A DNA stretch of 64,000 nucleotides, taken from contig NZ_CP042582.1 of NCBI RefSeq assembly GCF_008728835.1, positions 5,377,001 to 5,441,000 of the forward strand, read 5' to 3'. This document shows positions 27,145-29,080 of this stretch, one piece after another. This stretch comes from Hypericibacter adhaerens (GTDB lineage: Bacteria; Pseudomonadota; Alphaproteobacteria; Dongiales; Dongiaceae). The position numbers and the translations under genes are program-made. Within the stretch, counting starts at the first letter, position 1. Every line of letters begins with the position of its first letter. Below the pieces are notes generated by a model. The model saw only the letters and a list, made by a program, of their open reading frames with translations, did no database searches and was not told where the DNA came from.

Positions 27145-27636
27145 ATGGAAATCTCGCTTGCCGATCTGTGGGACGCCTATCCCGACGAGCTCCTGGTCTG
27201 CGAGGCGCAGTTCCGCGGCTTCGGCCGAAAGGAAAGCTTCGCCGGGCCCTGCATGACCGTGAAGGCGCATGAGGATCACCGTACGCTGATGGAGCTGGCG
27301 GCGACGCCGGGCCAGGGACGGGTGCTGGTGGTCGATGCCGGCGGCTCGCTACGCGTGGCTTCCATGGGCGACCGCATCGCCGCGGCCGCGGCCAAGAACG
27401 GCTGGGTGGGGGCGGTGATTTATGGCGCGATCCGCGACACGGCCGGCATCGACGCGCTCGATTTCGGCGTCAAGGCGTTGGGCACCACCGCCCGGCGCGG
27501 CGAGAAGCCCATCGGCGGGCTGATCGGCCTGCCGCTTTCCTTCGCCGGCCTGACGATCACGCCCGGCGACTGGGTCTATGCCGACCGCGACGCGGTTGCG
27601 GCGTCGGCGCGCGAGCTGAAGCTGCCGAAAAGCTGA
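27145..27636 (+). CDS. RraA-like protein (aldolase/decarboxylase or RNase E regulator fold)
   Basis: A 163-residue protein of the RraA / HMG-aldolase family. The sequence GRVLVVDAGGSLRVASMGDRIAAAAAKNGWVGAVIYGAIRD carries the family core, including the GD and IRD residues that bind Mg and pyruvate in the aldolases. ATG 27145 follows AGAGGG. It is divergent from argE. True RraA binds RNase E, while the aldolase members cleave 4-hydroxy-4-methyl-2-oxoglutarate; size and motifs allow either. Confidence 0.82.
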   Translation: MEISLADLWDAYPDELLVCEAQFRGFGRKESFAGPCMTVKAHEDHRTLMELAATPGQGRVLVVDAGGSLRVASMGDRIAAAAAKNGWVGAVIYGAIRDTAGIDALDFGVKALGTTARRGEKPIGGLIGLPLSFAGLTITPGDWVYADRDAVAASARELKLPKS

Positions 27637-27757
27637 GCACCGAGCGAATTTGTCCAACCGCTGCCATCGGAAGCTCCGTCTTAATCTTAGCCAAATCAAG
27701 GGATTCTATATGCTTAGTGACTGCGAAAGCTTATCCGGAATGGTCTTACAAAGAAAG

Positions 27758-27785
27758 TTGGACGCACCTATATCTCTGATAAGGT
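27758..27785 (+). promoter_or_regulatory. Candidate sigma-70 promoter for the low-GC locus
   Basis: TTGGAC and TAAGGT are separated by 16 bases, about 26 bases before the ATG of the 19-codon ORF. The match to consensus is moderate, but it stands in DNA much poorer in GC than its neighbours. Confidence 0.42.
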
Positions 27786-27810
27786 GTTATGTATGAAGAG
27801 GAGAGTGGCG

Positions 27811-27870
27811 ATGACAGATAAACGGGACGACAAGAAGGATGGCGGCGGTGGAGGCACCGGGCCTTACTAG
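27811..27870 (+). CDS. Possible 19-residue leader peptide
   Basis: A very short ORF encoding MTDKRDDKKD followed by GGGGGTGPY. AGGAG lies a few bases upstream of the ATG. It ends 18 bases before the GTG of the DUF4760-like gene and 43 bases before a strong terminator hairpin. The composition is unusual: charged first half, glycine-rich tail. It could be a leader peptide or a small protein in its own right; an upstream in-frame ATG at 27793 would add six residues. Confidence 0.5.
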   Translation: MTDKRDDKKDGGGGGTGPY

Positions 27871-27888
27871 GCGCTAAAGGAGGCATCC

Positions 27889-28464
27889 GTGCCGCCACTC
27901 ATCTGCGATCCGCAAACCGCGCTTGTAGCAACAAGCGCGGTTTCTTTTTTTCCGGTATGGCTGAGAGATGTCTTAAGTGCGGTTCAGACCCTAGCCATCA
28001 TCGCGATCCCAGTTGTTATCTGGCTGCTTACAAATGCGATCGAGAAACGGCGGGCGACACTGGAACTTGCGCGGACTTTGGACCATCCGGTTCGCGATCA
28101 TATTCAACGCCTCTATCTTTATAGAAAACACGAAGAAGGGGTGCGAGCCAATCTTTCACAGACGCCTCCCAATCCTTATGCCGATGGCACGCACGCGTTT
28201 TTGTTCGATTCAGTTACGGTCTTGAACTACTACGAAGCCATCTGCACCGAGATCCTTGCAGAGAACCTGGATGAAGAGCTTTTGTATAAGTCGATAAAGA
28301 ATCTGGTCGTCGGCGCGATGGATGTAGTTTTGGTTCGCTACAGCGCGAGACTCGGGGCGGATCAATCGAAAAACTATGCAAACCTCGTGCGGCTTGCAAA
28401 AAAGTGGCAAAGCCGTGCCAATAGTTACAATGAGTTGGGTGCAATCAAGATCCCAACCCCCTGA
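27889..28464 (+). CDS. DUF4760-like single-span membrane protein
   Basis: About 191 residues from GTG 27889, which follows an excellent AAAGGAGG ribosome-binding site. One transmembrane helix lies at about residues 28-50 (VLSAVQTLAIIAIPVVIWLL), followed by a charged cytoplasmic domain (VTVLNYYEAICTEILAENLDEELLY) resembling DUF4760. The function of that family is not established. Codon use and GC content are clearly lower than in neighbours, suggesting acquisition. A complete intrinsic terminator lies over codons 9-21. No other in-frame start upstream of the membrane helix is evident, so the gene must be read through the hairpin. Confidence 0.68.
   Translation: MPPLICDPQTALVATSAVSFFPVWLRDVLSAVQTLAIIAIPVVIWLLTNAIEKRRATLELARTLDHPVRDHIQRLYLYRKHEEGVRANLSQTPPNPYADGTHAFLFDSVTVLNYYEAICTEILAENLDEELLYKSIKNLVVGAMDVVLVRYSARLGADQSKNYANLVRLAKKWQSRANSYNELGAIKIPTP
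27914..27951 (+). terminator. Intrinsic terminator overlapping the start of the DUF4760-like gene
   Basis: A perfect 12-bp stem AAACCGCGCTTG / CAAGCGCGGTTT with a TAGCAA loop is followed by C and seven T residues. This is the clearest intrinsic terminator in the window. It begins 25 bases into the coding sequence, so it could attenuate the gene when ribosomes do not initiate at 27889. Confidence 0.88.
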
Positions 28465-28603
28465 ACCGCTCCCCTGGGAAGACCATGACATAGAATTGGT
28501 CCTGCGACGAGCCATCGCAGCGCCATTCTTCCTTCAAACTCGTAATATTATGCATCCTAAATGCCTCTTACAGAGCGGATGGCCCGCTGGAAAGCGAAGC
28601 GGC

Positions 28604-29080
28604 ATGGATTCATCCGACCGCCGAGTGGACCGCGATCTCCTCGTCGCCGACATCGTCGACCGCACCGGGATCGACGAGGCGATGATCGAGCGGCTGGTGC
28701 ACGGCTTCTACGACCGCGCCCGCCGCGACCCGCTGCTGGGGCCCGTATTCGAGAACAAGGTCCATGACTGGGAGGCCCATCTCGCGCGGATGTGCGCGTT
28801 CTGGTCCTCGGTCGCGCTGATGAGCGGGCGCTATCACGGCCAGCCGATGGTGGCGCATCTGCCGCTGCCGGTCGGGACCGCGCATTTCGACCGCTGGCTG
28901 GCGCTGTTCACCGAGACCGCCGAGGCGCTCTGCCCGCCGGCCGCGGCGGACCATTTCATCGAGCGGGCCTATCGCATCGCCGACAGCCTCGAGCTCGGCA
29001 TCGCCTTCCACAAGGGCGAGGTCGGTGCCAGCCGTCCGCGGCGAAAGCCCCCGGCGCGCGGCGAAACGGGACCGGCCTAG
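28604..29080 (+). CDS. Group III truncated haemoglobin
   Basis: About 158 residues. The globin core (IERLVHGFYDRARRDPLLGPVF, WEAHLARMCAFWSSVALMSGRYHGQPMVAH) matches group III truncated haemoglobins, which bind O2 or NO in the cytoplasm. The ATG at 28604 fits the family length; the open frame extends upstream into the low-GC patch but has no ribosome-binding site. High GC resumes with this gene, marking the edge of the acquired patch. Confidence 0.87.
   Translation: MDSSDRRVDRDLLVADIVDRTGIDEAMIERLVHGFYDRARRDPLLGPVFENKVHDWEAHLARMCAFWSSVALMSGRYHGQPMVAHLPLPVGTAHFDRWLALFTETAEALCPPAAADHFIERAYRIADSLELGIAFHKGEVGASRPRRKPPARGETGPA

Follow-up and report, generated by a model that had tools for sequence, protein, structure and literature searches.

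The window, by which we mean the whole 64,000-nucleotide stretch of Hypericibacter adhaerens DNA that was analyzed, lies in a genome consisting of a single contig of 5.87 Mb. It contains a gene of the DUF4760 family whose early codons carry a hairpin with the form of an intrinsic terminator; a Shine-Dalgarno (SD) sequence and a 19-codon open reading frame (ORF) precede the gene (Table 1). A sequence-only reading had picked out these features. The proposed family, the GTG start with its SD sequence just upstream and the 19-codon ORF ahead of the gene were all borne out. The position of the hairpin with its tail (27914–27951), across codons 9–21, also stood; the stem is 13 bp, not the 12 bp first read.

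Table 1. Features of the DUF4760 locus in the window, and leader peptides (up to the stop codon) of other DUF4760 loci
Feature	Position	Strand	Description
Low-GC segment	about 27630–28626		~51% GC in a roughly 70% GC genome
Leader ORF MTDKRDDKKDGGGGGTGPY	27811–27870	+	19 codons; preceded by an SD-like GAGGAG; matches in position the tiny SD-led ORFs before other DUF4760 genes
SD sequence AAAGGAGG of the DUF4760 gene	27876–27883	+	Read directly; SD score 7
DUF4760 gene	27889–28464	+	GTG start; 191 aa; N-terminal hydrophobic helix and helical domain
Putative terminator hairpin AAACCGCGCTTGT-AGCA-ACAAGCGCGGTTT	27914–27943	+	13 bp; tetraloop AGCA; within codons 9–19
T7 tail of the hairpin	27945–27951	+	Read directly; one C between stem and seven T
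Leader MKKMYDEFDGF			E. coli P88-type
Leader MKKVFDEFDGF			Citrobacter
Leader MKKTTNIILPTYPAMNEGWDF			Acinetobacter
Leader MGKIYLEGWDF, after second leader MNKAYSESWNC	L036:2350–2470		Kingella potus phage-plasmid
Leader MKQFNEGWEV			Pasteurella
Leader MGHIYSESRDFRLSDGWDGND			Neisseria
Leader MNLRDGWDDI			Alteromonas
Leaders MTTFREGWGG, MRIHDESEGF, MFLLEGTDGYY, MKPQEGSNGLE			Further loci

The 191-residue protein matches PF15956 (DUF4760) over residues 36–173 (E = 9.6e-9; 36 bits against a cut-off of 25) and has the family-conserved LN.YE, DE and R residues. It belongs to DUF4760/PHROG 2284, and a function is recorded for neither. An AlphaFold2 model of the protein is all-helical (pLDDT 69.5); models of DUF4760 proteins contain helices only, among them a single long one at the N-terminus. 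Comparison of the DUF4760 model with solved structures gave no fold match, and a fold search returned one uncharacterised viral protein (E = 1.5e-3). The PADLOC defence library gave weak hits only. Phage carriage and the membrane helix suggest a role in exclusion or defence. Searches of genome and viral contigs, of plasmids and of 16 genomes from the same order found no close relative of the window protein.

The DNA around the DUF4760 site is about 70% GC, and the low-GC segment that holds the gene, placed at roughly 27640–28560 by its base composition, is not part of any prophage within the window. The segment is absent from 16 relatives in the order. In a genome of the same genus (G014), the site is flanked by the same neighbours, an RraA-like gene and a bacterial globin, and holds an oppositely oriented gene (L190:1986–2662) instead of DUF4760; by eye, this gene looks like an Rrf2-type regulator. 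Since G014 has another gene between the same two neighbours, the window segment appears to be a horizontal replacement or insertion, present in single copy. The bacterial globin may have lost a neighbouring regulator, with the DUF4760 segment in its place.

The leader ORF shares the frame of the DUF4760 gene and ends with TAG at 27868–27870, 18 nt before the GTG. Earlier in-frame starts are possible at 27784 and 27793. Some SD-led tiny ORF occupies the same position in 28% of control genes, and the 19-codon ORF taken alone is weak evidence. A search with the leader sequence found no close relative elsewhere, and its end, GGGGGTGPY, does not carry the family motif described below, the nearest sequence being EGTDGY in L181. 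Membership of the window therefore rests on layout. A search of the window by consensus found no promoter.

The hairpin has a predicted folding energy of −20.7 kcal/mol (z = −7.05), and no shuffled sequence was as good. None of 1000 synonymous-codon redraws of the same protein matched it. These results support a hairpin that is real, directional and in excess of what protein coding requires. Its sequence is single copy in the genome, and the curated covariance models of Rfam gave no match to the element. Downstream of the GTG, the next in-frame ATG, GTG or TTG is the TTG at 28078, 28 residues into the DUF4760 domain, so a start beyond the hairpin would cost the protein its hydrophobic helix and part of the domain.

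Homologues were collected by PF15956 searches of Pseudomonadota genomes and of viral contigs, phage and plasmid records; the family alignment itself is too diverse to serve as a search query. This gave 98 loci with a DUF4760 ORF, of which 59 were left after dropping those more than 80% identical. DUF4760 is present in about 3% of the sampled genomes; of 5426 complete E. coli genomes, 296 carry copies resembling the E. coli P88-type gene. In annotated phage and phage-plasmid records the gene typically stands alone behind a large upstream gap, amid capsid, portal, integrase or repressor genes. The order of tiny ORF, hairpin and DUF4760 gene recurs in many of these homologues. The sequence-only reading had known of no described system with this layout for the family; likewise, the literature search found no description of a leader and terminator element, and DUF4760 was only named in the table of one paper.

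Hairpins were scored from −170 to +120 when they had a stem of 8 or more pairs, 4 GC pairs and a T-rich tail. T-tailed hairpins were found at 25 of the 59 non-redundant loci, against 1.6 expected from dinucleotide shuffles and against 17 of 267 control genes (Fisher, 6e-11; kinship among the loci inflates p values, and the contrast with control genes from the same loci is the safer statement). The strict criterion excluded 34 loci, which include many chromosomal genes of alphaproteobacteria. Of the 34 loci with a strong hairpin of any kind, 18 have five or more T downstream and 3 have five or more A upstream (p = 0.003), an asymmetry that points to an RNA terminator rather than a DNA palindrome. 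A DNA palindrome or integration site was considered and is disfavoured by this strand asymmetry and by the single copy in the genome. The hairpin lies between the leader and DUF4760 in L019, L021, L028, L037, L040, L045, L050, L064 and L104. At about 13 loci it is inside the early codons or overlaps them (the window, L005, L025, L027, L036, L039, L172, L173, L175, L181, L182, L185 and L187) and there codes for part of the hydrophobic helix; the T tails of L005, L036 and L185 are weak. Synonymous redraws reached the hairpin 0–10 times in 1000 at 12 of these 13 loci. The exception is explained by overlap of the L187 hairpin with the assumed start. Covariation can be seen by eye: L172 and L173 swap T-A for C-G with pairing kept. 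The alphaproteobacterial and Kingella hairpins of L005, L185, L187, L025 and L036 have an outer TGGC..GCCA in common; their five inner stems (CCCTG:CAGGG, TCCAGC:GCTGGG, TGCGAC:GTCGCA, AAGGGC:GCTCTT and TACTG:CAGTA) all differ and are each self-complementary.

Tiny SD-led ORFs end near the DUF4760 start in unrelated hosts, at many loci and mostly ahead of phage or prophage genes. A common C-terminal motif, [E/D]G[W/F/T], is seen in ends such as EGWDF, DEFDGF and EGTDGY. The pattern [ED]G[WFYTSI] occurs within the last nine residues of the leader at 20 of 59 loci, compared with 3 of 267 control genes, a count to be read knowing that the motif was chosen from these same loci after they were seen. 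When L050, L064, L085 and L104, which were fetched with a leader pattern, are left out, the count is 16 of 55. A motif leader and a hairpin occur together at 12 of the 59 loci and in none of the 267 control genes. Among loci found by protein search, the DEF[DE]GF codons of the E. coli-like leaders (L019, L021, L040 and L044) vary at third positions only, and the EGW/DGW codons of L005, L036–L039 and L043 likewise differ only there. All 8 viral tiny ORFs ending NEGWDF, which come from one lineage, precede DUF4760; a scan of genome contigs for NEGWDF gave 7 matches, none of them an SD-led tiny ORF. Viral tiny ORFs ending DEF[DE]GF precede DUF4760 in 30 of 85 cases, against 0 of 11 for a permuted pattern. 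A general phage family of DEFDGF micropeptides was considered and kept out of the evidence because no DUF4760 accompanies the other 55 SD-led tiny ORFs, and some of the tiny ORFs are other genes read in an alternative frame. On three lambdoid contigs (L110, L049 and L090), MYDEFDGF, MYDEFEGF and MHDEFEGF lie over an ORF starting MTNSKDSKYPTR in a different frame, which makes them look like frame coincidences. An E. coli plasmid (NZ_OZ282456.1; L047:2560–2700) carries the leader MKKRYDEFDGF with a terminator, about 80% identical to the DUF4760 element, and the DUF4760 gene is missing.

Leader and hairpin could both be placed at 26 loci, and their positions were compiled by hand. The distance from leader stop to hairpin foot is 13–73 nt (sd 17.5), with 13–26 nt at 18 of the 26 loci; that of the window, 43 nt, is inside this range and longer than usual. 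Relative to the DUF4760 start, the foot ranges from −85 to +105 (sd 50). Leader-stop and hairpin positions are correlated (r = 0.94). Because the hairpin tracks the leader stop and not the DUF4760 start, the conserved unit is the leader ORF plus terminator, with the DUF4760 start sliding from before the hairpin to after it. This changes the picture given by the sequence-only reading, which took the hairpin for an attenuator built across the start codon and held that homologues starting beyond the hairpin would speak against it. Some homologues do start there, and the hairpin belongs with the tiny ORF.

We consider that these loci probably represent leader-coupled transcription attenuation of a phage-carried membrane protein, with leader translation either raising or lowering expression. 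The window, we think likely, carries one instance of a cis element that recurs with phage-type DUF4760 genes, and its gene would be a phage-carried (moron-like) membrane effector acquired by horizontal transfer. The hairpin would terminate transcription, and translation would control that termination. Transcripts from upstream of the leader would have to pass first the tiny SD-led ORF and then, soon after its stop, the intrinsic terminator. By default most would end at the hairpin, and full-length DUF4760 mRNA would be made only if the hairpin failed to form in time. Such failure would most likely be caused by ribosomes that sit on or near the hairpin, either while translating the leader or when re-initiating at the DUF4760 start. 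At loci with the hairpin inside the coding sequence, including the window, a ribosome that completes the leader and re-initiates at the nearby start would follow RNA polymerase closely onto the hairpin. An initiating ribosome reaches about +15, short of the window hairpin, which starts at +25; covering it would take ribosomes that are elongating or re-initiating. With the hairpin ahead of the start, interference could come only from a ribosome that lingers at the end of the leader, a situation that would fit the conserved last residues of the leader. No upstream segment paired with the 5′ arm of the terminator beyond chance (mean z = −0.07; 27 loci), so a trp-type switch is unsupported; the alternative antiterminator pairing of a classical ribosome-mediated attenuator (trp/bmr type) was thus not found at these loci. 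A short CCTC:GAGG pairing was seen in the enterobacterial group only.

The terminator-like distance between leader stop and hairpin, whatever the DUF4760 start does, is also what would be seen if the tiny ORF were a separate micro-gene ending in its own terminator. The peptide would then act in trans, with the DUF4760 protein or the host as examples of its target, and leaky read-through would yield much peptide and little membrane protein in a fixed ratio. The conserved part of the leader is its C-terminal residues, and the E. coli plasmid noted above keeps leader and terminator with no DUF4760 behind them, both of which are consistent with this idea. However, that plasmid may hold a deletion remnant, and the leader sequence of the window is not conserved. 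A terminator buried in DUF4760 codons, as at no fewer than 10 loci, would be odd for a separate gene; it cannot merely be the terminator of another gene, which we count in favor of attenuation. We regard an independent micro-gene as rather unlikely. The same buried hairpins argue against the hairpin being a mere insulator from stray read-through, with no regulation by the leader and with DUF4760 expressed from a promoter near or behind the hairpin or by low leak, since they would block the gene's own upstream promoter too. The positions of leader ORF and hairpin are, moreover, coupled, and the sequence of the leader end is conserved. Insulators are common among structural or lysogeny genes, where DUF4760 usually stands alone behind its gap, and in Acinetobacter a consensus promoter lies upstream of the leader; even so, we judge the insulator improbable.

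For the window itself, the lone low-GC segment, its location outside any prophage, its absence from 16 relatives and the missing leader motif would all fit a relic, that is, a transferred fragment with a non-working leader-like ORF and hairpin, or a gene disrupted at its 5′ end. An intact 191-residue frame with family-invariant residues, a strong SD sequence and a very strong hairpin with seven T make a relic quite unlikely. Within the attenuation reading, a bolder form is offered only tentatively. The tiny leader peptide with its conserved [E/D]G[W/F/T] end may act as a ribosome-pausing sensor coupled to the intrinsic terminator in an undescribed, widespread attenuator, with the terminator moved into transmembrane codons in several lineages; a lysogen might then make the membrane protein only upon some disturbance of translation or of a cellular signal, such as one caused by a second phage.

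The simplest working model of leader-coupled attenuation would resemble the pil1 attenuator of Streptococcus gallolyticus, where ribosomes that reach the hairpin destabilise it and an antiterminator is not needed (PMC3894217). Like pil1, the DUF4760 loci have, at the sequence level, an SD-led short leader ORF and a stem-loop terminator between that ORF and the body of the gene. Unlike them, pil1 varies its leader length by GCAGA repeats, places the hairpin upstream of pilA and not inside it, controls an unrelated gene and lacks a conserved peptide end. Bacillus subtilis bmrBCD (PMC4191407) also has an intrinsic terminator inside coding sequence and translation control (the latter proposed here); its terminator is part of the leader gene bmrB and is opposed by an alternative antiterminator, whereas the DUF4760 terminator lies in or just before the regulated gene and no antiterminator was found. 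Those E. coli uORFs that show premature 3′ ends, such as mdtU-mdtJI (PMC7815308), share premature termination and a tiny ORF, conserved at its C-terminus, before a gene for a membrane protein; mdtU acts with Rho, whereas the DUF4760 terminators are intrinsic hairpins.

The DUF4760 gene is common in prophages and phage-plasmids and is unstudied. A conserved leader and terminator ahead of it would mean restrained, conditional expression, and this offers a handle on its timing and purpose. Where the terminator lies in transmembrane codons, the same bases would serve RNA control and protein sequence. The recurrence of tiny frame and hairpin in many prophage-type relatives suggests an undescribed on/off control element for phage-carried genes.

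Like the Kingella potus locus L036, L028 (1120–1250) has tandem leaders, MREVVGGF occurring twice before one DUF4760 gene. In L007 (1115–1203), a 29-codon ORF contains EGTGR three times and is followed 28 nt later by a terminator with seven T and then by DUF4760. On two T4-like contigs from IMG/VR (L075 and L108), tiny ORFs ending DEFDGF or DEFEGF (MFSLRKFDEEDFEFFDEFDGF, MILDEFDGF and MPCVLDEFEGFDEHPDF) lie before replication and recombination genes; they are like the enterobacterial DUF4760 leaders and may be unrelated to them.
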